Source: Pyropia yezoensis
Taxonomy: Eukaryota; Rhodophyta; Bangiophyceae; Bangiales; Bangiaceae
Reading direction: 5' to 3'
Assembly: GCA_009829735.1 (NCBI GenBank)
Contig: CM020619.1
Span: 10,530,375-10,594,374, forward strand
DNA: 64,000 nucleotides
Under the pieces are notes generated by a model. That model was not told where the DNA came from. It searched no databases and worked only from the letters and a program-made list of their open reading frames with translations. Of this stretch, positions 8,279-21,109 are shown piece after piece (positions within the stretch are counted from its first letter, which is position 1; every line of letters starts with the position of its first letter). The position numbers and the translations under genes are program-made.

Positions 8279-8337
8279 TATGTCGGACGACCTGCCTACT
8301 GGACCGCCTGTGCGCCGCTTGCTTTGTGGCCCGGTTA

Positions 8338-8456
8338 TTGTGCGTCCCGTAAAAAGTGGACGTGCACGGGTCGTGCAGTGTGGGTTTGATTGGTCCAGTG
8401 GCCGATGTTTGACACGATCACGACACGTGCACGACCACTTTTTACGGGACGCACTA
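8338..8456. mobile_element. 119-bp foldback MITE
   Basis: Positions 8338-8368 and 8426-8456 are inverted repeats (29 of 31 bases) containing GTGCGTCCCGTAAAAAGTGG, flanked by TA on both sides (8336-8337, 8457-8458). Only about 57 bp separate the arms and these are also partly complementary, so most of the element can fold back on itself. No coding capacity. Confidence 0.72.
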
Positions 8457-8471
8457 TAGCCCTATGCCATA

Positions 8472-8676
8472 CAGTCTGTATCCGGTTATATGCGCCCCAG
8501 TTATATGACAGGGGGTCATATAACTGGGAGATTTCCCTCGCACGAGGGAGCAGGACGCTCTCTGAGAGCCCGACTCGTTCCAAGAAGGCACCTCATTGGT
8601 GGAAGTGTTAAAAAGGGGTAAAAGTGGGGGTGGGCTACAATGTGCGCAAGGGGGTCATACAACTGGATACAGACTG
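8472..8676. mobile_element. 205-bp MITE with CAGT ends
   Basis: Starts and ends with the inverted repeat CAGTCTGTATCC, extended imperfectly through GTTATATG/GTTGTATG, between TA dinucleotides at 8470-8471 and 8677-8678. CAGT ends and TA duplications are typical of pogo/Tigger and mariner MITEs. The interior contains a perfect 14-bp hairpin. The ends do not match the Tigger-like element at 31682-34053, so its mobilising transposase is not identified here. Confidence 0.75.
8496..8528. repeat. 14-bp perfect hairpin inside the MITE
   Basis: Arms 8496-8509 and 8515-8528 (CCCAGTTATATGAC and its complement) are separated by a 5-nt loop. Confidence 0.85.
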
Positions 8677-8739
8677 TAGCGCGGTTTGGCGGCGACATGG
8701 GTGAAGGGGTAAGGACGGAGGGGACGTGCAACACGCTGA

Positions 8740-8780
8740 GAGTGTTTCCAACAACGTCACGACGATCCCGATACCATCTC
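8740..8780 (+). repeat. Harbinger left terminal inverted repeat
   Basis: 41 bp, inverted match to 19353-19393 with two mismatches. It contains the core GTCACGACGATC, also seen in palindromic form in the right subterminal region. Confidence 0.92.
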
Positions 8781-11204
8781 ACGCCAATCTGAATTGAAGC
8801 AGCCACGTGGGTGCTGCTGAGTGGAGGAGCGTGGCAAGAGCCGATATATGCAATGGAGTTGCTGGATCACAGGGGCTACATGATTTCAAGACGGGACAGC
8901 TGGCCTTTACGATAGCAACTGGCTTTCCGCTGCCGCTAATCAGAAGAGGGGAGGGTTCGCTGTCGCCTATTGCGTGTTCGATGGTATTCAACCTGGAGCA
9001 AGCCCCCCCCCGAAGACAGGTGCAAGGCTCGAAAACGAGGAAACATTGTCGATTCTCCTGCGGAACAAGCGAGACACGCAGCACAAAGCAAGGCAATCTC
9101 GTGTATCTCGTCCATACTTTTGTCGAACGTTGCCTAATATGACTGTGCAATGCGACTCTTCTTGCCACGTGCACTCCAAACTCGCTCCAATATTCCTGTC
9201 CATATGCGAATATACACACTCAAAAGTGTATATAAGCCTGTTTGTGGTCAGTTGGGGTCGTGTCCGACCGTCTCTGTGCAACGAGCCAATCACCTGACGC
9301 AGTTTCCCTCGACGCGCCCCGCCTGCGATCAGTGTATGCCGGGAACGGACGGTTGTGACCGCTCGGTCCATGAGACAACCGACCACGTCGCTTTCTGCAA
9401 GGTTGACAGTTGCACGCTTCCGCGACTCCATGCGGAGTACCGGCGTCGTTTCCGCAACTTTCGCACGCTCTATGAGGCGACCACAGCGCGGCGGCTCTAT
9501 CGTGCCTCCTCTTTTTCTTTTTCGAGGCGCGAGGTTGCGCATTCCCCCCCGCCATGCATGGCCGCCCCGCCATGCAAATTATGGTGAACGAGATTCGCCC
9601 CCCCCCACCTCTCTTTTCTTTACCCCTCGCTGGCGCACGCGGCCCCGGCGGCTCTTGCATTCCCCCCCGGTCGCGTATGACGTCTCTATGTGCGACTCCG
9701 GCGGCTATCGGTCGGTTGACCACCTCGGGTTCTGCGTCTCCGTCTTCACGCTTTACGCGTGTCACCCCCCCGCTCTCCCCTGCGCGTCGCCAAGCAAGCC
9801 ACCGCCGTCTACGCAGCCGCGCCTTCCCCGGCGCCTCCCCGACGCCACCCCTCATCGCCCCACGCCCGCCCCACGGCCGCAGGAGGGTGCCAACAGTGGA
9901 CAGGGGCGCCCCGCGGTGGTCGCCTCTGGCATGGCGGCCACGCCCCGCCTCGTGTCGGCCCTGATTCTTATTGGGCACGCCAAGCCGGTCGCAACCCCTC
10001 CCCGCCGCTTGCCGCCCAGAGTACTGTTGGGCCCCCCCCCCCCACATCGCTCCCGCCCAATGGAACTGTGCAAGCGTTTCCTCTCTAACCCCCCTGTGGG
10101 CACCAACGCCCATGGGCGCTGCCGTGCTGGTTGGCCACACGAGGTGTCTGGGCCGAGGGTGTCGCGTGACCCCCGGACAATTTCCAGGGGCGGGACGAGA
10201 GCCTTGCGGGGGTGCTTCCTCCCCCCCCCCCTCCCCCCCACATGACCACGCCCCCCCCCTTCCCACCACACGCCCCACCTGCGCCCTGTCGTCGACACGG
10301 ATCCCCACTTCGCGCCACCGCTGTCGGGAGGCATTTCCCACCGGCCGCTCTGGCCCACGTCTGCACTGTTTGCGACGGCAGTCGCCCGCGGGGTGGTCGC
10401 CGGCGGGGGGTCGCCAACTCCCCTCGCCCGATTTCCACTTGGCCGCACGGGTGTCGCGGTTGGCCCCCCGCACGTGGGTGAGCCACACTAGCGACCCCAT
10501 CGTTGGCGCCCACATTGGCGGCCGCAACGGTAGGATCGGCCGCCACCCCGGTGAAGGGGCCGCCTCCACCTGCATGCAGGGCGGCCTGGCGGCCTGGAGG
10601 CCGAAAAGGGTCATCATCCCCCCTCGTTTCGGCCTCCCCGCTTGCCACGCCGCATCTCCGCCACTCCTCTCGCGGCCGCACGGTTGCAGCGGTTGGTGGG
10701 GGCGGCCATCCCCCTCTCGGGCGGCCATACGCGAAGGAGCGCCGCCCCCACGGCCACACGCTCTATGCTGCTGCAAGCCGCCTTTTTCTCCCTCTTTGCC
10801 GTCATTGCCCGTGGGGCTGCAGCCCCGCCCCCGACAGTGGCGGCCGCTGCCAGCCGCTGCCGGCCGCCGTCCAGACGGACGACACCTGCACCGGGGGGGG
10901 CCTATTGGCCGCATGCGGGCCCAAACTTGTCCGCACCCCCCACGCGCACCCCGGTGCGTCGGGGGACGGGGGTCGTCCGGCCGCACCCTGGGCGGCTGAC
11001 GTGCTCTGTGGGCCTGTGGTCGAGGCGCACTTCATCGACCCCTCTATGAGGCCATGAACGCTGGCTACAACGTTCGTCGCGCTCAGCCGTCACAACGCTA
11101 CCACTCTGCACATTGGGGGCCGTACGACGGCCCCGATTCCCTTTCCCCCACTTTCCCACGCGCGCAGCACTCTCCTGTGCCGCCTTTTCCGCTCCTCGAG
11201 CACC
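8781..11204. other. Harbinger left subterminal region, no recognised gene
   Basis: 2.4 kb between the left TIR and the first credible coding frame. Long frames exist on both strands (for example minus 10986-9220), but they are Gly/Arg/Pro-rich, overlap each other and show no domain. A short plus-strand stretch near 9290-9480 has a CxxC...H...C pattern discussed in the findings. Promoter sequences for the rightward gene should lie here but no clear TATA box was found. Confidence 0.55.
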
Positions 11205-13784
11205 ATGGGCGCAGCCACTCGGGGCGCGGGGGGGGACAGGGGTGGCGGAGGGGGGGGGGGGCGGGAGCGGAACCACGGGGGTCCGCCGGCGCGGCAGATA
11301 AGCAAGGACCAGCGCCGTCGAGGGCTCCGGCCCCTCTGCGCGCGCTGTCGTCGTGCGCAGATCACGGGGCCGGAGTACCCCCTCTGTCACTGGCGGTGCG
11401 GCTGCCCGTGGGCAGCTCAGCCACCGTTTGGGGAGCGCGGAAGCCTGTGGCGGGCAGGCCGCGGGCGGCACCTGACGAAGACAGAGCTGCGGATGGCCTT
11501 CCGCCGTCTGTGCTGGCAGTGTCGGCGAGCGCAGCGAGCGGAACTGGACCACGCTCTGTGCCATTGGACTTGTCGCTGTCCTTGGGCGGCCACTCCCCCG
11601 AAGCAGGACGTGCCGCCTCTGCTGACGGGGCCGCAGGGCGGCCCCTGGGGCGACCGATCGCCGGCGGGGCGGGCGGTACCGACGGAGTGGGACAACGGGC
11701 GCCAGCGCCAACCGACAGAAGAGCCGCTGAACGACGGCGGCGGCCAGGCGGCGCCGGGAGGGTGGACCAACGCCCATCCGGGGCGGCTGACCGCTCCTCG
11801 CTGGGAGGGGCCGCAGCTGGTTGGCGGCGGCGGCCAGGGCCAGGGAGGACCGACCCCGTGGCACCATTACCAAGGGCGGCCGAGCAGTCCCCGCTATTGG
11901 GAGGGCCCGCCGCTGTTTGAAGGAGGCCAGTCTCGGCCAAGCCGGTGGGAGCACCACCTTCAGCAGCAGCAGCAAGGGCGGCCGACGAGCCCGCGCAGGG
12001 ACGATCGGCCGCGGCTGTTTGGGGACGGCCAGGCGGGGCCCAGCAGGTGGGAGCACTACCCGCAGCAGCAGCAGCAAGGGCGGCCGACGAGCCCACGCAG
12101 GGACGATCGGCCGCGGCTGTTTGGGGACGGCCAGGCGGGGCCCAGCCGGTGGGAGCACTACCCGCAGCAGCAGCAGCAAGGGCGGCCGACGAGCCCACGC
12201 AGGGACGATCGGCCGCGGATGTTTGGAGACGGCCACGCGAGGCAGAACCGGAAAGCCGACCACCAGCCGTGGCGACCAACCAGTGTCCGCTTTTGGGAGC
12301 GGCCGCCGCTCTTTGGCAGCGGCCAGGCGGGGCTGAGCCGGCGGGACCACCACCAGCAGGGGCGGCCGACCAGTCCCCGCTGTTGGGAGGGGCCGCCGCT
12401 CTTTGGCGGCGGCCAGGCGGGGCCGAGCCGGCGGGACAACCACCAGCAGGGGCGGCCGACCAGTCCCCGCTATTGGGAGGGGCCGCCGCTCTTCGGCGGC
12501 GGCCAGGCAAAGCCGAGCCGGCCGGACAACCACCAGCAGCAGCAGCAGCAAGGGCGGCCGAGCAGCCCTCGCAGGGATCACCGGCCGCCCCTGGCTGGCA
12601 GCAACCAGGCGGCACCGAGCGGGTGGCCCCGCACCCAGCTAGGGGGGCGGACGACTCCGGGGGTCCAAGGGCCGCCGTCGATTGGCGTTGGGCAGGGGCC
12701 GCCGACTGCCCAGATAGCGGGGGAGGCGGCCCTGGGCAGCAACCAGCTGTCGTCTTCCGCGCTGGGGAGCGGCCAGCAGAGATCGTTGCCATTGGCGCCG
12801 TCGGAGAGGCGTCTCGAGGCAAGCGCTCGAGGAGCTGCTGCGGGCCCGGTGGAGGGCTCCCCGCGAGGCGGCGTGCGAGGGACTCCCCTGGGTGGGCCGA
12901 GCGACACCGGCCCACCACTGCGGCCATCCTCGAGCAGTTGGCCAGCGCCTCGTGGCGACCCGTGGTCTGCGCTAGCAAGGGCGGTGCGACTGAGCCCGAG
13001 GCTCGCGGATCGCGGCGTGCAAGATCGCCCATTGCTGCCGAGGTCACCGGCAGCAGCAGCAGCAGCAGCAACACCCGCGACGAGTCCGCCATGTCCTCTT
13101 CCCCCTTCTTTAGAGGACAGTCGAGAGGAGGGGGGCACGCCGGCGGTGCCGGCAGTGCCGGCGGTGCTGGCGGGGACCCTCGCGCCGGCAGCCCCGACAA
13201 CGGGGCAACGTCCAGCGGCAGTGGGGCCGCCACCGGGCGCGGCCGCCGACGTCACGCAGCCAACTACGACCGGCCACCCCGCGGTGGCCGCGCCCGCGCC
13301 AGAGGCGGTCGGCCACCACCAACAGGCGGCCGCCCCAGCTCTAGCGGGGACGACGATGCAGTCACCGACGGCGACGGGGACGAGGACGAAGAGGCCGCAG
13401 CCGCAGCAGCCGGGGCACATGCACGGCGACGATCGGGACGAGGCGCCCGTCGTGGCGTTGGCGGCCCCCACCCCGAGAGGGGCCGAGGAGCCGCAGCAGC
13501 CGGCGCCGCTGGTGTCGCCGCCGGTGTCGCCGCCCGTGTCGCCGCCGGCGTCGCCTCCGCCGGGGCCGCCGACGGGGGAGGTGGTGCCGGCGGGGGGAGC
13601 GGGGCCGGCAGTGCCGGCCCCGCCGTTGGTCCGGGGGGGTCTCGAGGCCGCGGTCGTGGCCGCGACGAGAGCGGCCGCGGAGGCTGCGGAGGCGGAACGG
13701 CTGCGGGCGCTGGCGGACCTGGATTGGGAGCTCGCGCCCACACCCACGGGATCCCCTACTCCGACGTCGAGCGCATACAGCTGA
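11205..13784 (+). CDS. Repeat-rich Harbinger-internal protein with duplicated Cys motif
   Basis: Open frame of 859 residues whose ATG sits in CACCATGG. Residues about 30-130 hold two copies of a motif of the form C-x2-C-R-R-A-Q-...-LCHW-x-C-x-CPWA, roughly 60 residues apart, which could bind metal. Residues about 220-470 are tandem repeats: three 34-residue units (102 bp each) with GRPTSPRRDDRPR, LFGDGQA, SRWEH and a Gln run, then 30-residue units (90 bp) with PPLFGGGQA. The rest is Pro/Ala-rich, ending in an Ala/Glu-rich helix-like segment. No known family recognised. The last 694 bp overlap the Myb-like gene in another frame, so this may really be the N-terminal part of that gene joined by an unseen intron or frameshift. 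I prefer this frame in the repeat region because it uses Trp, His, Asp, Glu and Phe rather than only Ala/Arg/Gly/Pro. Confidence 0.5.
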   Translation: MGAATRGAGGDRGGGGGGGRERNHGGPPARQISKDQRRRGLRPLCARCRRAQITGPEYPLCHWRCGCPWAAQPPFGERGSLWRAGRGRHLTKTELRMAFRRLCWQCRRAQRAELDHALCHWTCRCPWAATPPKQDVPPLLTGPQGGPWGDRSPAGRAVPTEWDNGRQRQPTEEPLNDGGGQAAPGGWTNAHPGRLTAPRWEGPQLVGGGGQGQGGPTPWHHYQGRPSSPRYWEGPPLFEGGQSRPSRWEHHLQQQQQGRPTSPRRDDRPRLFGDGQAGPSRWEHYPQQQQQGRPTSPRRDDRPRLFGDGQAGPSRWEHYPQQQQQGRPTSPRRDDRPRMFGDGHARQNRKADHQPWRPTSVRFWERPPLFGSGQAGLSRRDHHQQGRPTSPRCWEGPPLFGGGQAGPSRRDNHQQGRPTSPRYWEGPPLFGGGQAKPSRPDNHQQQQQQGRPSSPRRDHRPPLAGSNQAAPSGWPRTQLGGRTTPGVQGPPSIGVGQGPPTAQIAGEAALGSNQLSSSALGSGQQRSLPLAPSERRLEASARGAAAGPVEGSPRGGVRGTPLGGPSDTGPPLRPSSSSWPAPRGDPWSALARAVRLSPRLADRGVQDRPLLPRSPAAAAAAATPATSPPCPLPPSLEDSREEGGTPAVPAVPAVLAGTLAPAAPTTGQRPAAVGPPPGAAADVTQPTTTGHPAVAAPAPEAVGHHQQAAAPALAGTTMQSPTATGTRTKRPQPQQPGHMHGDDRDEAPVVALAAPTPRGAEEPQQPAPLVSPPVSPPVSPPASPPPGPPTGEVVPAGGAGPAVPAPPLVRGGLEAAVVAATRAAAEAAEAERLRALADLDWELAPTPTGSPTPTSSAYS
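11973..12550 (+). repeat. Coding tandem repeats, 102-bp then 90-bp units
   Basis: The CAAGGGCGGCC core recurs at 11973, 12075 and 12177 (period 102) and a related core at 12361 and 12451 (period 90). Each unit carries a CAG run of variable length. Periods are multiples of three, so every forward frame stays open. Confidence 0.88.
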
Positions 13785-15637
13785 GCAAGGCGTGGCTCGA
13801 GGAGTCGGAGGACGCTGTGGTGGGGAAGGACCAGAAGGGGAAGGAGTTCTTTGCGGTAGTGACGGCCAACTTCCAGCGGCGCATGGCCCGCATGAGGGCC
13901 GCTCACGGGGGGGTGGGGCGCGGCCCTCATCTGCGCGCCATTCGCGAGTCTACAGGCGTCCAGCGGTACTACCAGAAGCTGTCGGAGAAGGTCATGCGCC
14001 TGGTGTGCGCCCGCGGCTACGTGGAGAGCAAGAACCTGACTGGGAGCCCCTCCGAGCAGGACATGGAGCTGGCCATGATGGCCAAGTTTGAGAGGCGGGA
14101 CATCTACGAGGCAATGAGGGCCGGGAAGTACGTCCCCAACCCGGCCCTCAAGTCGTTGGAGTCCAGGGCAATCCACTGGCTACCGGCGTGGCGTGTTTTG
14201 CGCGAGTCAGACAAGTACAGCGGCGCCGCGTCTTCGGCCGCGATGGCGGTGCGGCACTCAGAGTGCCCCGCCGCCGCGGCCGCGAGCTCGGCCGCGGGTA
14301 CGGCCGGGGCGGCCCCTTCCTCTGTTGGGGGATCGGCCAGTGGGTCGGCAGCCGCTTCTGCTGAGGGGGCCACCGCCGCCGACGGGACGGAGTCCCAGGA
14401 CGCAGATGGCGACTCGACGCCTCTGGCCCGTGGCAAGCGTCGGCGCCCTGGCACATTCGTTGACCGCCCCCTGGGCACCCAGTCTACTTTGGAGCAGATG
14501 GCCGCGCGCGCGCGCGACGCTGCCATGGCGAAGGAGAGTAGCGCCAACACTGCAGCGCTGAAGGTCATCGCGGGGGCCACTGCGGACAGGAACCTGATTG
14601 CGGCACTGTCGGCCCCCGGCATTCGGGACATGCCGCGCTTCCGCGCGTTTTTGGCCCGGCGCGCCGATGCGCTCACCGCCCAGCACATGGCCGCCAACGC
14701 ACCGGCACCTGCGGGGGCGTCCAGCAGCGGCGAGGTTGCCGCAGATGCTGGTGGAGGGCCGGGAGGGGAGGCGGCCGCTCCAGTGGCCGCGGCTCCGAGA
14801 GTCGCGGGGGACGGCGGGGCGGCGGTGGGGGGGGCCGGGGGCCCGGTGGCGGGGGGGGCGGGGGGTGGGGCGGCCGCCGCCATGAGCGCGACAGATGACG
14901 AGCCGGGGGCCGCGGCTGCTGGCGAAGCCGCGGCCTCCGGCGCTGTCGCGGCTGGTGCGGGCTCACGGCCCTCGGACGGCCGCTCATCAGCGGCCGCCGG
15001 GGCCGCGGCCGCCTCTGCAGCCCCACCCCCTGGCCCTCTTCCACCCACTTTGCCAAACTCTCCGGCGTCCTGGGAGAGCCAGCAGCCACCGCCTTCCCCA
15101 CCTCGGGCACCTGTGCCTATGGAGTGGCCTCCGCTGCAGCCACCGCCGTCCCCACCGCGGGCACCTGTACCGATGGAGTGGCCTCCATTGGCCGATGGGC
15201 CCACGGAGGGGTCCTCAGGGACGCCGGGGCAGCGCGGCACCGGTCCGCGCAGGCCGACTGGGGTGTCAGCGGCAGCGACACCGGTGACGCCCGCCCCACC
15301 TCTGCGGGACGTGGTGGCCCCTGCAGGTGGCCGCTCCGCGGGTGGCCGCTCTGCGGCCGCCCTTCTATCCGTCGGCCGACGGGCGCAGATCACCAAGCAG
15401 CTGCAGTTTGCCGCCGCTGCCGGAGGCTTTGTCAGTCAGAAGGGCAAAGGGCCGAAGCGCATGCCCGTTTATCGTTCCACTACGCCGTCCCCCGAGCCCT
15501 CTGTGGCAGATTCTGAGCAGGACGACGATGTGGGGGAGTACGACAACGTGGACGGTGATGAGGACGAGTTTGACCCGCTCATTAGGTCGGTGAAGGAGTT
15601 GGAGGATGAGGAGGACGACGATGACTTGTACATGTGA
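13091..15637 (+). CDS. Harbinger-associated Myb/SANT-like DNA-binding protein
   Basis: From the ATG at 13091 (GCCATGTCC context) the frame gives 848 residues; it also stays open upstream, so a spliced start is possible. Residues about 220-355 form the Myb/SANT-like domain typical of the second protein of PIF/Harbinger elements: YSDVERIQLSKAWL, then EDAVVGKDQKGKEFF, FQRRM and a second helical block ending MRLVCARGYVE. This matches the plant and algal 'SWL..EDPVVGxDQKG..FW' pattern. A serine/alanine-rich linker, a Pro-rich stretch with a duplicated PSPPRAPVPMEWPP unit, and an acidic tail (EDEEDDDDLYM) follow. In studied Harbingers this partner binds the transposase and helps it reach DNA and the nucleus; the same role is inferred here. 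It converges on the transposase gene, with 739 bp between stops. Confidence 0.85.
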   Translation: MSSSPFFRGQSRGGGHAGGAGSAGGAGGDPRAGSPDNGATSSGSGAATGRGRRRHAANYDRPPRGGRARARGGRPPPTGGRPSSSGDDDAVTDGDGDEDEEAAAAAAGAHARRRSGRGARRGVGGPHPERGRGAAAAGAAGVAAGVAARVAAGVASAGAADGGGGAGGGSGAGSAGPAVGPGGSRGRGRGRDESGRGGCGGGTAAGAGGPGLGARAHTHGIPYSDVERIQLSKAWLEESEDAVVGKDQKGKEFFAVVTANFQRRMARMRAAHGGVGRGPHLRAIRESTGVQRYYQKLSEKVMRLVCARGYVESKNLTGSPSEQDMELAMMAKFERRDIYEAMRAGKYVPNPALKSLESRAIHWLPAWRVLRESDKYSGAASSAAMAVRHSECPAAAAASSAAGTAGAAPSSVGGSASGSAAASAEGATAADGTESQDADGDSTPLARGKRRRPGTFVDRPLGTQSTLEQMAARARDAAMAKESSANTAALKVIAGATADRNLIAALSAPGIRDMPRFRAFLARRADALTAQHMAANAPAPAGASSSGEVAADAGGGPGGEAAAPVAAAPRVAGDGGAAVGGAGGPVAGGAGGGAAAAMSATDDEPGAAAAGEAAASGAVAAGAGSRPSDGRSSAAAGAAAASAAPPPGPLPPTLPNSPASWESQQPPPSPPRAPVPMEWPPLQPPPSPPRAPVPMEWPPLADGPTEGSSGTPGQRGTGPRRPTGVSAAATPVTPAPPLRDVVAPAGGRSAGGRSAAALLSVGRRAQITKQLQFAAAAGGFVSQKGKGPKRMPVYRSTTPSPEPSVADSEQDDDVGEYDNVDGDEDEFDPLIRSVKELEDEEDDDDLYM

Positions 15638-16376
15638 TGTGTGCTTGTGTTTTTTTTTGTGGCACTGCTCGTTTTGGCTTGCATCTGCTGTGTCTGTTGT
15701 TTGTGTGCAGGTACTCACGGTTTCCTGACAAAAGTTTTCTTCCTTTGCGTGCTTGATTCTGCGCCTCTTGTCGTTGGTCTGCTTTTTGTTGGCGCCGTCT
15801 GTCTGCTTTTTGTTGGCGCCATTTAGTGGGGCCTGTGTGTCACCACGCGTGGGGTGTGCCTTGAGGGCTGGGTTGGCGTGGTAAATGCTCCACCAGCCGC
15901 TTTGTCTTTCCTAAGCTCTGGCTTTCCTGACCTTCGCTCAGCTGCGTCCTCACCTCCTCCACTCCCCCGCCACGCTCGTGCCGGCAGCCAGGCGCCCAGG
16001 CGGCCGACAAGTCGGCCGCTGTATCGTCGCCACCCCCCCACCGCCAAGGCGTCCCCCCCTCCACTTCTTTGCCACGTCGGTGGCAGCATCCAGGCGCACA
16101 GGCGGCCGACAAGTCGGCCGCTGTGTCGCTGCCACCCCCCCACCGCCAAGGCATCCCCCCCCCCACTTTCGTGCCACGCCGGTGGCAGCATCCAGGCGCA
16201 CAGGCGGCCGACAAGTCGGCCGCTGCGTCGTTGCCACCCCCCCACTACCAAGGCGTCCCGCCCCTTGCGTTTTTGCCACGGCAGCGGCCGTTTTTCCATG
16301 CTAGACCGGCTCACAGGTGAGGAAAAAAAAAAAACCCGAGGGGAAAAAAAAACCTTTAAAGCAGCCGCCCACCCAC
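15638..16376. other. Shared 3' region between convergent Harbinger genes
   Basis: Non-coding. Starts T/G-rich after the Myb-gene stop (15640-15830, including two TTTTTGTTGGCGCC copies near 15783 and 15808), passes into 102-bp tandem repeats, and ends with two A runs (16323-16355, T runs on the minus strand) just beyond the transposase stop. Confidence 0.7.
15969..16275. repeat. 102-bp tandem repeats, three copies, each with a palindrome
   Basis: The palindrome GCGGCCGACAAGTCGGCCGC recurs with period 102 (its CGGCCGACAA core starts at 16001, 16103 and 16205). Each can form a 9-bp stem with a 2-nt loop. The copies differ at few positions. They lie exactly between the 3' ends of two convergent genes. 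Confidence 0.92.
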
Positions 16377-18113
16377 CTACATGTGTACCAACGCATGACG
16401 GCGGTGCAGAAACGGCGCCAGAGCCTCCGCCTTGTTCTCCCACACGTGTGCCATCAGGTCAGCGCGTAGTCGCTCGTGCTCAATCGGACTGGTCAGAGCA
16501 GACAGGTGCCTGATATCGTCAGTGCGCCAAGTCGGGGCGACACGGCCATTACCCTGCGCGCCGTTCCCGCCCCCGGCCCCGGTCCCCGCCCCCGCAGTAC
16601 CAGCACCACCTCCAGATCCATCAGGTGGACAGGCTGCACCCCCCGCAGCCGATGCACCACCCCCACCGGCCACAATACCTCCCGCACGTCCAGATATGCC
16701 CGCTGCGGCCGCCGTGCCTTCACCCACAGCGCCCGCACCACCACCCGCACCGACACTGCTACCACTACTAGCGGTACCGGACGAAGACGACGACGAAGAC
16801 GACGAAGAGGACCACGAGAAGGCCGACAAGGAGTCACTCCCCGCGGCCTCTGCGGACTCTGCGGCCTCTGCTTCAGCCTGCGCAGCGGCCATCATGACAG
16901 AGGCCGCTGCGCCGGCCTGGCCGTATAAATCTCCCATGCGGAGGCGGGAGATGTACCCGTCGCGGCGGTTGATGACAATCATGTTGTGCAAAATAGCGAC
17001 AGCCTTGGCGGTGCGGATGATACGGTCAACAGAGTGATACTTGGCCGGGTGGAGAAGGATGTGAAAGCGCGCGGTCATTACGCCATACAGACGCTCAACG
17101 TCCTTGCGAAGCGCCTCTTGCAGCCGGTTGTAAGTGCACTTCTTCAGGGTGTTGGAGGTGGCGCGTGGAAAGGGTCGGGCAAAAATGGGGAACTTGGGAT
17201 ACACACCGTCGGCTAAATAGTACAGCAAGCGACGCGTGCGGCCATTCAGTGTGTACTCAAAATTGTCAGGGGGCCATACACCGTTCGTAATGTCCATGCA
17301 GAGCGGTGATTGGCCCCACACATTCAGGTCGTTCTGGCTGCCCGGTGGCCCCACGAAAAAGTGCCAGATGTACAGGTCCTCATCGCAGACTGTCTCCATT
17401 ACCACGGAGCGCCGCTTCTTGTAGTCCTGGTACTGGCCCGCCAAAGCCTTGGGGCACATGCGCCAACCCCAATGCGAGCAGTCGATGCTCCCCATGCACC
17501 CAGGCATCCCACGTTGCGCGTTGCGGTCAAGAATATGGGCCAGCTCGTCCATGTTTGGGGGGCGCAGGAAAAACTCCTCGTAGTTGTCGACGATGTGGTC
17601 GACAAGCATTTGCGTCGCCACCGCCGTTGTGGACTTGGACAGTCGGACGTACTCGTCAGGCCGATCAGCGGCCTCACCGTACGCCAGCACACGAAAGGCG
17701 GCCACCACCTTCTGCAGGGCATGCGCCTGTGGCCGCCCACTGGCGTTGATGGTGCGCTTCCAATACGGCAGGTCCTTCACGTCGTCGTAGACCGTCATAA
17801 ACACATTGCGAGGCACGCGGAACCGAGTCTCAAAATCAGTCTCGCCGTACACAGGTGGGTTCCCGTCCTCCCCAAAGTAGTCAGCCTCGATGCTTCGGTA
17901 GCCGCGCTCAAATCCACGCAACCGGTTGGCACGACGGCCAGGCACAGAGCCGCCGCGACGCCGGCGGCGTCGGGCAACCGCACCCGACAGAGCGATGTAG
18001 TGTCTACGTCGCGTTAGAGAGAGCCTCGCAGCCAGAACAGCTGCGTGGACCTCGTCCGCCGATCCATCGGACACCTCCCATGCCTCTCGATCAAAAGGCG
18101 AGGGGGCAGCCAT
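16377..18113 (-). CDS. PIF/Harbinger transposase (DDE_Tnp_4 nuclease)
   Basis: 578 residues from the ATG at 18113 (MAAPSPFDRE); the frame is open further upstream but lacks a better ATG and is low complexity there. The N-terminal part (about 60-150) shows YFGEDGNPPVYGETDFETRFRV, the DNA-binding/HTH segment usual in these transposases. The RNase-H-fold nuclease follows: D211 in GSIDCSHW, D262 in NDLNVWG, D302 in LADGVYP and E340 in RKDVERLYGVM; the expected catalytic acids D211, D302 and E340 are all present. Residues after about 410 are a Ser/Gly/Ala-rich tail ending ENKAEALAPFLHRRHALVHM. The frame is uninterrupted, so it is probably functional. It would cut the 41-bp TIRs described here and duplicate TGA on insertion. 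Confidence 0.95.
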   Translation of the reverse strand: MAAPSPFDREAWEVSDGSADEVHAAVLAARLSLTRRRHYIALSGAVARRRRRRGGSVPGRRANRLRGFERGYRSIEADYFGEDGNPPVYGETDFETRFRVPRNVFMTVYDDVKDLPYWKRTINASGRPQAHALQKVVAAFRVLAYGEAADRPDEYVRLSKSTTAVATQMLVDHIVDNYEEFFLRPPNMDELAHILDRNAQRGMPGCMGSIDCSHWGWRMCPKALAGQYQDYKKRRSVVMETVCDEDLYIWHFFVGPPGSQNDLNVWGQSPLCMDITNGVWPPDNFEYTLNGRTRRLLYYLADGVYPKFPIFARPFPRATSNTLKKCTYNRLQEALRKDVERLYGVMTARFHILLHPAKYHSVDRIIRTAKAVAILHNMIVINRRDGYISRLRMGDLYGQAGAAASVMMAAAQAEAEAAESAEAAGSDSLSAFSWSSSSSSSSSSSGTASSGSSVGAGGGAGAVGEGTAAAAGISGRAGGIVAGGGGASAAGGAACPPDGSGGGAGTAGAGTGAGGGNGAQGNGRVAPTWRTDDIRHLSALTSPIEHERLRADLMAHVWENKAEALAPFLHRRHALVHM

Positions 18114-18223
18114 CTTCCAAAACTGCAGCCCCACAACACCTCCCAGCCCCCAGCACACACACGGTGGCGGCGGAGACGACAGTGGTGGAGGTGGCGACGG
18201 TGGTGGGCCTGCCGATGCGTGCT

Positions 18224-18385
18224 GGGCCGTCGCACGCGGCCCACAAACAGACCGACGACGGCGGTGACGACGGTGGTGACGGCGATGAGCGTCACGACAG
18301 TGGTGGGCCGTCGCACGCGGCCCACGAACAGACCGACGACGGCGGTGACGACGGTGGTGACGGCGATGAGCGTCACGACGGTGGT
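18224..18385. repeat. 81-bp direct tandem duplication
   Basis: Units begin GGGCCGTCGCACGCGGCCCA at 18224 and 18305 and differ at only a few bases. The unit is a multiple of three long and lies in the 5' region of the transposase gene. Confidence 0.88.
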
Positions 18386-18424
18386 GGCCATGTCGCCGGT
18401 ACGAAGTGAGCCGTCCCACGCGGC

Positions 18425-18720
18425 CCGCGAAGCCCCCCCCGATCCACCCCTGGATGCCCCCCTCCCCGCAGCAGCGTCCCCCGGGGGGGGTGCACGCGCC
18501 TCCCCCCCCAATCCACCGCGGGAGGCCCCCCCCCCCGCAGGAACGTGCTCCGGGGGGGGTGCACGCCCCTCCCCGCGACGCCCCCCCCCCCATTCCACCG
18601 CTGGAGGCCCCCCCCCCGGTGCCAAACGTGCTGCGGGGGGAGTGCACGCCCCTCCCCACCCAGCCCCCCCCCCGTGGGAGCCTGTTGTGGGGGGGCGGCC
18701 CCCCCTCCGCCAGCGCGGGC
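18425..18720. repeat. C-tract/G-tract minisatellite
   Basis: Three to four irregular units (spacing of the shared GTGCACGC core: 69 then 83 bp, at 18490, 18559, 18642), each a C run, an ATTCCACCG-like word, a second C run, a G run and GTGCACGC. Confidence 0.75.
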
Positions 18721-19080
18721 CCGCGCCGGGAGTGGGGCCCTGCACGAAATGTTGTATTTTTTTGTTATTTTGCCGGGGGTGTTGGGGGTAGGCTCGCCGG
18801 AGTGGCGTCCGGCGGCGTGCGTATGATTTGAACGGACCACGTCGATGCGTCGAATACGTGGGTGCGGTGTGGGGGATCCGAGAGGGGGGGGGGGCGACCA
18901 CTAGGACTCGTGCCCAACGGACCGCTGCGGATCCACACGACCACGCGCCATATGCCCAATCATCCAATCCTGCAGACTTCCAGATTGCGTCCAGACACTT
19001 TCGAGAGGGTCGCGAATCTTTCACGCAGGGCCCCGTTCTAGCGTTAAAAATGGCAATAAACGCTACCATAACCCGAAACG

Positions 19081-19152
19081 AGATCGTCACGACGATCTCT
19101 GCAACGAAGTAGAGGAGGGAGATCGTTTCCGACATCGTCGTGACGATCTTCT
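19081..19152. repeat. Subterminal palindromic copies of the TIR core
   Basis: GATCGTCACGACGATCTC near 19083 and ATCGTCGTGACGAT near 19135 repeat the GTCACGACGATC core of the TIRs on both strands. Such subterminal copies are candidate transposase or Myb-partner binding sites. Confidence 0.6.
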
Positions 19153-19352
19153 GCGGAAACGTGGCTCGCACGACTTCAAACAACTCCACCAACTCCATTC
19201 GCGTCTGAACCCGAAACGGAGGCCCGAATCTGGCCGATTCGGGACGCGACCGGACCCCAGCGGCGGCCCACAAGCCCCCGCTGGGCTCTCATTGGCCGAG
19301 AGACGTTTGGAAGCCACGTGTGGGCTCAATTGAAAGCTGCGAAAATATATGA

Positions 19353-19393
19353 GAGATGGTATCGAGATCGTCGTGACGTTGTTGGAGACACTC
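19353..19393 (-). repeat. Harbinger right terminal inverted repeat
   Basis: Inverted partner of 8740-8780; the flanking TGA at 19394-19396 matches the left flank. Confidence 0.92.
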
Positions 19394-20605
19394 TGACGGT
19401 CCGGTGAAGCTCGCTGCCTCAGGCCGAAATCAGCCAGATGTGCGGTCTGAGACTGTATCGTGCTTTTCTATAAAATGCCCGGACAAGAACGTGCGGCGTT
19501 TGCGCCGTCTGTTCAGACACTGTTCCATTGGCCTGGGCGGGGGTGGTCCGGACACTACGTCGGACTGAGGCAAAACGTTCCAGCCACCAGGCCCGGGAAT
19601 TCCAATCATCTCGTTTGCCTCACGTGGAAAAGCTCGCGATTTGTATCTCCCCGCCGGACGTGTCACCCGCTGGCCCGAAAAGAAGGCCTCTCCGTTGCTC
19701 CTGTTGGGCCACTCTGTGACCCACTTATTCGCTGAAAAAACCTCCGCACCGCGCCGGGTGGCCCTCCAGAATGGGGTGCAAACGCCGCACGATACGATTC
19801 CCCAGGTCGGCTTCCGGCCGATCCATCTGCTAACTGAGGCACTGGGGGCGCCCCTGCCCCCAATTGGCTGGAACGTCGCAGCCGCAGACACCAGCCAGGC
19901 CTGAAATGGGCTCGGAACGCCGCAGCCTCCAGACCGCGTCAGGGAGCTTTCGACGCTGCCCCACACAAGTTGGAATTTCATGGCGGCTTGCCATTGGACG
20001 AGCAAAGAGCAGTTGATCCACAGAGGATCTCCCATTTTCTCGTGTTGTGGGAACCGCGGGGACGTTGATTGTTCGTGTCAGAAGCAGAGTCGTCTGCCTG
20101 CCTTTCGGCAATGACGTGAGGTCACTCTGCAGAGAACCCATGTCCAACTGATCGCCTTCTCACCATGGCACACGCACCGGCCACTTCGAAAAGGAGGCTG
20201 GGCTAGCCTCTGCGTCCTCGTGGCGCGCCTGTATCGACTTGGTGACTTCGTGGGGCCTCGGAGCGGATGGGTCTCCCTCCGGCGCTCCAGCCGAGCGTCC
20301 TCAGAGCGGATGGGTCTCCCTCCGGCGCTCCAGCCGAGCGTCCTATCGCTAAATTCGCCACGGAACACGATGTACAAGATAATTTGGCACCCCGTTTTTA
20401 CGGTGATCTCCAGCGTGAGGCCCAGAAGCACCCATTGACCACTGGCAGCTACCAGAAGCTTTTTCTTCTGGGTGCACGCACCGTCGTTCCCCACCCTGTC
20501 CTCCACCCACATCCACCACCGTCGTCCCCCCACCATCATCGCCACCCCGGCGTGCCGTTGCGGCCACACCCGGGTGGCGGCAGGCACGGCGACGCGGCGG
20601 CCGCC

Positions 20606-20830
20606 GCCGACGGTGGCGGTGGCGGTGGCGGTGGCAGTGGCAGTGGCGGTGGCGGTGGCGGTGGCGGTGGCGGTGGCGGTGGCGGTGGCGGTGGCGGTGG
20701 CGGTGGCGGCGGCGGTGGCGGTGGCGGTGGCGGTGGCGGTTGCGGTGGCGGTGGCGGTGGCGGTGGCGGTGGCGGTGGCGGTTGCGGTTGCGGTGGCGGT
20801 GGCGATGGCGGTGGCGGTGGCGGTGGCGGC
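20606..20830. repeat. GGCGGT microsatellite
   Basis: About 37 units of GGCGGT with scattered single-base variants (GGCAGT, TGCGGT, GGCGAT). Long Val/Ala or Gly frames here are by-products. Confidence 0.95.
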
Positions 20831-21109
20831 CCGGTCCCCCCACGAGCCCACCGCCGCGGTACCCCCACAGCGGCTTTCCACCGTCACAAACTGCGACGAA
20901 GCGTGCCTGTCACCCCCAACACAAGGAGTGGCGGTGGCGGTGGCGGTGGCGGTGGCGGTGGCGGTGGCGGTGGCGGTGGCGGTGGGGGTGGCGGTGGCGG
21001 TGGCGGCCCGGTCCCCCCACGAGCCCACCGCCGCGGTACCCCCACAGCGGCTTTCCACCGTCACAAACTGCGACGAAGCGTGCCTGTCACCCCCAACACA
21101 AGGAGAAAA
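20831..21109. repeat. 177-bp tandem duplication spanning unique DNA plus microsatellite
   Basis: A unique segment of about 100 bp beginning CCGGTCCCCCCACGAGCCCA occurs at 20831 and again 177 bp later at 21008, separated by a second (GGCGGT)n run at 20931-21006. Confidence 0.9.

Follow-up and report, generated by a model that had tools for sequence, protein, structure and literature searches.

Within the 64,000-nucleotide stretch of Pyropia yezoensis DNA analysed here (the window), the segment from 8740 to 19393 resembles a Harbinger transposon. This raises the questions of whether it is a complete element, why it extends over 10.65 kb, what its large additional coding frame encodes, and whether it is still moving. 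We compared it with the whole genome (107,475,971 bases in 11 contigs, the large ones being C1-C3). It is very probable that window positions 8740-19393 are a full-length copy of a Pyropia yezoensis family of cut-and-paste DNA transposons of the PIF/Harbinger superfamily (PHIS), with a predicted two-exon SANT gene that includes a Cys/His module. The completeness claimed in a preliminary description of this DNA is borne out by terminal inverted repeats (TIRs), 3-bp duplications, a DDE transposase plus a SANT-type gene, and dozens of ends genome-wide.

Borders and target sites

The outermost features, in window coordinates, are the following.

8737..8739, no strand: left target-site duplication TGA (single TGA in a paralogous empty site)
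8740..8780, plus strand: left TIR, 41 bp, containing the motif CGTCACGACGATC
19353..19393, minus strand: right TIR, 41 bp
19394..19396, no strand: right target-site duplication TGA

The TIRs are present as previously claimed: by direct reading, the arms match at 39 of 41 positions and mismatch at 2, and inverted-repeat detection returned arms of 42 nt (one flank base included) with 95% complementarity. One mismatch, at position 29, is C on left ends and T on right ends. It recurs across the own-family ends read, with the single exception of C2:19814931 (A), and is a family feature. The other, at position 7 (T>C), is absent from all others of the 49 genome TIR matches described below. The flanks of the window copy read GCTGA|GAGTG...CACTC|TGACGG, with the claimed TGA on both sides. 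An empty site in another strain, with ...GCTGA joined to CGGTCC, had been proposed as a check. Such a site was found, as a paralogous one in the same genome: C1:12580296-12580420 reads CACGCTGACGGTCC, holds one TGA only and is 77% identical to the joined flanks of the window copy across the join. TIRs, duplication and empty site thus agree on the exact borders of the 10.65-kb element and on its 3-bp duplication.

Genome-wide, 161-bp end queries gave at least 42 left and at least 41 right matches, TIR-only ones included. A 28-nt TIR pattern (one position free, up to 3 mismatches) matched 24 times forward and 25 times in reverse, 33 of these 49 matches having zero mismatches, and the reversed control pattern matched 0 + 0 times. 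Pairing of left and right ends delimited elements of 7.6 to 29.8 kb. We read the interiors of nine copies beyond the window copy (A, B, BLL and C-H), leaving out the long pairs at C3:38102, C1:3684409, C2:32673697 and C2:17974579. Copies with both ends and the interior in common with the window copy, for which the preliminary description had suggested searching, were found across the genome.

The flanks of these ends reveal a target preference. A matching 3-bp duplication was present in 11 of the 13 copies with both flanks (TGA 5, TCA 5, TAA 1), a set outside which the copy at C2:32694981 falls, having no TIR match there at up to 4 mismatches. The two pairs without one are copy C, whose right flank equals that of C1:8831127, and C2:17974579. 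For single ends, we entered 45, namely the 49 TIR matches plus C2:6302503 and minus five: C2:24659898 and C1:8831127 (flanks same as other ends), C2:9981459, and two diverged ends with flanks other than TNA (C1:12594077 and C3:12799990). TNA was found at 43 of the 45 (43/47 counting the two diverged ends), 31 of them being TGA or TCA and 12 being TAA or TTA, and the outward neighbour base was G at 26/45; these counts include both B and E despite their identical left flanks. The family has thus inserted with a 3-bp duplication and has multiplied. As judged from these flanks, its target preference resembles the C|TNA|G of NuwaII and not TWA.

Shared flanks were seen as a separate matter. Copies B and E have an identical 15-nt left flank, TCAGTGCGGGATGGG, though they lie far apart on C1, and copy C and C1:8831127 have their right flank in common. 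Insertion into a repeat or segmental duplication is suggested for both cases.

Coding regions

The interior of the element is organised as follows.

8781..11204, no strand: left region, probably non-coding (frameshift indels between copies in 9220-10999)
11205..12818, plus strand: predicted first exon (538 codons) of the DNA-binding gene, with Cys/His module and tandem repeats (34 aa, 30 aa)
11292..11612, plus strand: Cys/His module with two C-x2-C-x(9-13)-C-H-W-x-C-x-C-P-W motifs, one at 11337 and one at 11511
11907..12539, plus strand: in-frame tandem repeats with periods of 102 and 90 bp, copy number variable between copies
12819..12901, plus strand: predicted 83-bp GC-AG intron (GAG|GCAAGC ... 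CCGAG|CGA), frame-consistent and aligning with L068 (see below)
12902..15637, plus strand: predicted exon 2, of 911 codons and a stop, containing the SANT-type domain
13739..14224, plus strand: Myb/SANT-type domain (genome matches; codon-position test)
15638..16376, no strand: spacer between the two convergent genes, holding a 102-bp tandem repeat (15956-16265)
16377..18113, minus strand: DDE transposase, 578 aa from MAAPSP (Pfam; indel pattern; codon-position test)
16956..17570, minus strand: Plant_tran / DDE_Tnp_4 catalytic domain, residues 364-568 of the 760-codon frame
18114..19352, no strand: right non-coding region (frameshift indels over 18014-19273 and 18114-18659)
19085..19145, no strand: TIR core motif as a subterminal inverted pair (19085-19097 plus, 19133-19145 minus)

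The transposase had been described as intact. Its frame is open in the window copy and matches the Pfam models Plant_tran (E 2.5e-55) and DDE_Tnp_4 (E 1.3e-12), which we take to stand for Harbinger transposases. The frame shows zero frameshifts in all seven aligned copies and one stop each in B and C, and as a query it gave 76 genome matches. In the plus-strand region 11205-15637, indels are multiples of three only in D, G and A, 1-nt indels occur in F and C, and B has many.

Codon-position tests were referred to L068, a diverged family at C1:36037300-36047290 with the same three-part order as the window element; for the plus-strand region, 3647 of 4253 aligned columns were used. An excess of third-position differences was found in the transposase (0.19, 0.18, 0.49; p 2e-37), in the Cys/His module in the first frame (0.14, 0.17, 0.49; p 3e-8), and, in the second frame, in the SANT domain (p 1e-5) and the C-terminal part (p 8e-11). 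Three stretches gave no significant signal: 11907-12539, the repeat linker (p 0.41); 12801-13090, the transition zone (p 0.2-0.36); and 13091-13738, in front of the SANT domain (p 0.46). At the level of sequence comparison, the tests show that both convergent coding regions have evolved under purifying selection between subfamilies. Within the window copy's own family, no clear purifying selection was seen (transposase p 0.51, SANT 0.5, ORF859 0.044), implying that most differences arose after insertion.

The Myb/SANT-like gene claimed beforehand finds indirect support, through its relatives. Neither the SANT piece of the window copy (Pfam, PDB) nor the L068 version (Pfam) has a match of its own, and the only Pfam trace in the region is NAM-associated at E 1.6 behind the domain. 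A query with the 162-aa domain gave 138 genome matches, down to 25% identity, and in distant relatives (29-36% identity) the same domain is directly followed by Pfam NAM-associated. NAM-associated has 40 genome matches, 29 of them over the cut-off, and at least 20 of the 40 lie directly behind a SANT-type domain on the same strand, a lower bound as the 20 SANT rows compared with the 40 NAM-associated rows were chosen by eye. In plant Harbinger elements, ORF1 proteins have a Myb-like domain followed by NAM-associated. Thus, the partner protein appears, by way of these relatives, to be of Myb/SANT type. Pfam Myb_DNA-bind_3 had no match in this genome, and control genomes likewise gave none, which makes this result uninformative. 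AlphaFold models of the Cys module and the SANT domain, the latter helical, were of low confidence (pLDDT 49 and 45) and were not used as evidence.

Other frames were discarded. Apart from the two genes, the long ORFs located in 9220-10999, 15823-16513 and 18014-19273 are disrupted by frameshift indels when copies are compared, and those of 588, 342, 296, 419, 206 and 219 aa were rejected as genes on these grounds. Among the 588-, 342- and 419-aa frames, which were scanned with Pfam, the only hit was DUF1582 in the 342-aa frame, at E 0.007 and below the cut-off. Antisense frames of 559, 623, 532 and 430 aa were taken as shadows of coding exons, because they overlie such exons, where indels are multiples of three in any frame; the 559- and 532-aa frames had no Pfam match.

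Structure of the SANT-type gene

How the two plus-strand frames are joined decides what the large additional coding frame (11205-13784) is. Both sites of the predicted intron at 12819-12901 align with those of a 92-bp GT-AG candidate in L068 (2899-2990) with a GTAAGC donor; the GC donor of the window copy is non-canonical, and copy C has an altered donor at this intron. Frame-consistent candidates alone are common, with 185 GT/GC-AG combinations, 39 of them GT, in the scanned stretch of the window copy, and it is therefore the alignment with L068 that argues for the intron. The second-frame sequence (RPTTAAILEQLA / RPTAAAILEQLA) begins near 12902, with no upstream ATG in that frame (by eye, in the stretch shown). 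Considering the aligned splice sites in both families and this opening without upstream ATG, we prefer a model of one predicted gene with two exons of 538 and 911 codons, a short intron and a protein of about 1449 aa. The additional frame shows a coding signal only in its first part, and it most likely represents the predicted 5' exon of the SANT gene and not a separate gene.

A three-gene Harbinger element, in which the Cys-module frame would be a third gene of its own in front of the SANT gene, seems unlikely to us, though not negligible. The ORF 11205-13784 is open in the window copy, D, G and A, the window copy and L068 both have an ATG in similar context in the SANT frame (13091; ES[A/T]MS), and extra proteins in Harbinger elements have precedents in HarbingerS and PHISTA. 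However, the SANT-frame sequence RPT-AAILEQLA is common to the window copy and L068 about 190 bp before ATG 13091, with no ATG before it in that frame (by eye, in the stretch shown; the codon test of this stretch was not significant), and the aligned frame-consistent splice sites in two families also speak for an intron. Joining of the frames by a -1 ribosomal frameshift would agree with the same shift being needed in the window copy and L068 (the SANT frame being the first frame + 2), but it is highly improbable: the alignment of the two is poor exactly there, as an intron would predict, and L068 has the GTAAGC donor.

The Cys/His module

With the two-exon gene as the preferred model, its first exon contributes a module without direct Pfam match, yielding 57 genome matches as a query. 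In alignment A1, the motif cysteines are kept in all 7 sequences, and one His is replaced by Arg in three. We counted its linkage over 51 of the 57 Cys matches (6 second pieces out), 65 of the 138 SANT matches and 59 of the 76 transposase matches (second pieces out). At 43 of the 51 loci entered, a same-strand SANT domain follows the module at a distance of up to 15 kb (38 within 3.5 kb), against a chance expectation of about 1% per locus; 5 of the 43 pairs are 10.8-12.7 kb apart, the copy B pair pointing to the SANT domain of a neighbouring element. At 30/51 loci, the module is followed by a convergent transposase as well as by a SANT domain. Transposases of subfamilies keeping the linked module are only about 60-77% alike to that of the window copy.

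Distant SANT rows were picked mostly for nearness to a transposase or Cys match, so that counts for distant families are biased. Among 12 such picked loci (28-36% identity) with a convergent transposase (48-67%), a module match within the detection limit lies upstream in one (C1:42859482). In view of the other 11, the module may mark one clade, or it may have diverged beyond detection elsewhere. In L065 (partial transposase, 76% DNA) and in L066 and L067 (DNA matches to the ends only), neither Cys module nor SANT was found.

As a separate observation, a distant version of the module (36-43% identical) precedes a distant SANT domain by 1443-1444 bp at each of three loci, L073-L075 (C3:8458780, C1:31604500 and C3:6908830), near which there was no transposase match among the rows entered. 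These loci perhaps belong to another Harbinger family.

The module is probably zinc-binding. It is tempting to speculate that RRGLRxLCxxCRRAQ...LCHWxCxCPWAA represents an undescribed zinc-binding domain fused to a red-algal Harbinger DNA-binding protein, which could serve target or TIR recognition or act against host silencing and would define a new three-module type of Harbinger transposon; we offer this as a tentative proposal.

Size and age of the family

Copies without a large insert measure 11,128 bp (D), 11,206 bp (G), 10,321 bp (B) and 10,654 bp (window copy), and copies A, F and C come to 10.5-11.5 kb minus their inserts. The five larger copies read (15-29 kb) consist of a unit of about 10.3-11.5 kb plus nested insertions or duplications: copy A has a 7.5-kb insert whose 847-bp direct repeats are 99.8% identical, copy C an insert of 9.4 kb (469-bp repeats, 99.6%) as well as an internal duplication, copy F an insert of 4.5 kb whose inverted ends measure 111 bp, and copy E an internal duplication, while in copy H a retroelement with 422-bp direct repeats (99.5%) replaces the middle of the element. 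We call the inserts of A, C and H putative LTR retrotransposons, based on their direct repeats and on frames that, read by eye, resemble reverse transcriptase and integrase. From the insert-free copies and the larger ones minus inserts, about 10.3-11.5 kb is the normal size of the family. The description of the element as unusually large thus holds against published means of 4.1-4.7 kb, which it exceeds more than twofold, but not within its family, where its size is ordinary.

We are confident that the 10.65 kb is explained by the module and linker (about 1.6 kb) plus non-coding sequence on the left (about 2.4 kb), in the middle (0.7 kb) and on the right (1.2 kb). Nested or captured foreign DNA within an ordinary 5-kb Harbinger element has some appeal considering the nested retroelements of other copies, but is extremely unlikely here, as the 10.65-kb unit is collinear in D and G, and also in A, F and C once their inserts are discounted, and the 25 matches found with the left region 9300-10950 are family members. 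There was no sign of a captured host gene in that searched region. Recent or ongoing mobility had been deduced from the TIR match and the open frames; both genes are indeed open in the window copy, and the 33 mismatch-free TIR matches would fit it. Nevertheless, a recent or still moving insertion appears improbable to us, considering that comparison of the window copy with D, G, A, F and C gives 96.2-96.8% identity while D and G share 98.8%, and that five of the seven aligned copies have stops or frameshifts in a gene. At 3.2-3.8% difference from five relatives, TIR match and open frames are insufficient for the deduction, and it was not upheld. Copy D likewise has both genes open; in each of B, C, G, A and F, at least one gene is damaged.

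Copy B (C1:33249695-33260015) has a patchwork middle (60-74% identity) at the equivalent of window positions 12700-15300, in which near-identical family blocks alternate with hardly alignable GC-rich sequence. Assembly error, decay and recombination are candidate causes.

Putative mechanism and neighbouring sequence

The TIR core motif CGTCACGACGATC (up to 1 mismatch) has 4 sites in the element, one per TIR and an inverted subterminal pair about 250-310 bp from the right end, an arrangement that is the same in all five copies examined; shuffled sequence had a mean of 0.01 sites. These are plausible binding sites. By analogy with the superfamily, the SANT-type protein would bind the motif at the TIRs and the subterminal pair and would recruit the DDE transposase, which would cut at the TIR tips and presumably reinsert the element, with a stagger of 3 bp, at sites of the C|TNA|G kind. 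A 7584-bp derivative (C1:33242069-33249652), which has two inverted left ends around interior sequence, no transposase and TGA/TGA flanks, suggests mobilisation in trans.

The surroundings of the element are also rich in repeats. A MITE-like element of about 0.2 kb at 8470-8678 has 29-nt inverted ends (TACAGTCTGTATCC...) with TA at both tips, which suggests a Tc1/mariner-type target, and its right end has 30 further genome matches of 31-54 nt (90-100%). A hairpin at 8333-8461, with 43-nt arms of 91% complementarity, directly adjoins it. Just beyond the right border, at 20500-21100, lies a long simple repeat with Ala-Val and poly-Gly frames.

Relation to known Harbinger systems

The element shares with PHIS in the wide sense a DDE_Tnp_4/Plant_tran transposase, TIRs and a short (0-3 bp) target duplication. 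As far as the available text of PMC4482050 (2015) goes, NuwaII elements have C|TNA|G targets, TIRs of 13-46 bp that begin with GG in most families, and a mean length of about 4685 bp, and red algae are absent from its host list. The window element is similar to NuwaII in TNA duplications, preferred C before and G after them, DDE transposase plus an apparently Myb/SANT-type protein, and a 41-bp TIR, but differs in a TIR that begins with GA, in its 10.65 kb and in the added Cys/His module. The classical PIF/Harbinger group is characterised in the same text by TWA duplications, TIRs under 60 bp starting with G, and, for autonomous PIF/Harbinger elements, a mean of about 4124 bp. With this group, the element shares the plan of a transposase plus an apparently Myb/SANT-type protein, the short TIR starting with G and a 3-bp duplication, but TWA is found at only 12/45 ends, against TGA or TCA at 31/45, and its length is again far above the mean. 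It also resembles HarbingerS (SET) and PHISTA (TET/JBP plus a third protein) as a Harbinger-superfamily element with extra coding capacity; PHISTA, according to PMC12730594, has 2-bp TA duplications and no Myb/SANT protein. Unlike in these two, no SET or TET/JBP domain was detected by Pfam in the frames of the window element that were scanned.

Among the open-access literature matches listed, no title dealt with Harbinger elements in Pyropia or Porphyra. The P. yezoensis genome paper (PMC7423979) gives LTR retrotransposons as the predominant repeats, and the word Harbinger was not found in its main text as available in part. Overall, the element is ordinary in mechanism and unusual in its Cys/His-module protein and its size.

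For a farmed red alga, our analysis describes a Harbinger family by its exact borders, its genes, its preferred targets and an inventory of its copies, and suggests that targets of the C|TNA|G type are used in red algae. With the borders known, mobility can be checked across strains by simple PCR. The Cys/His module, which is conserved and linked with the SANT protein across many subfamilies, is a candidate new part of the two-protein Harbinger mechanism.
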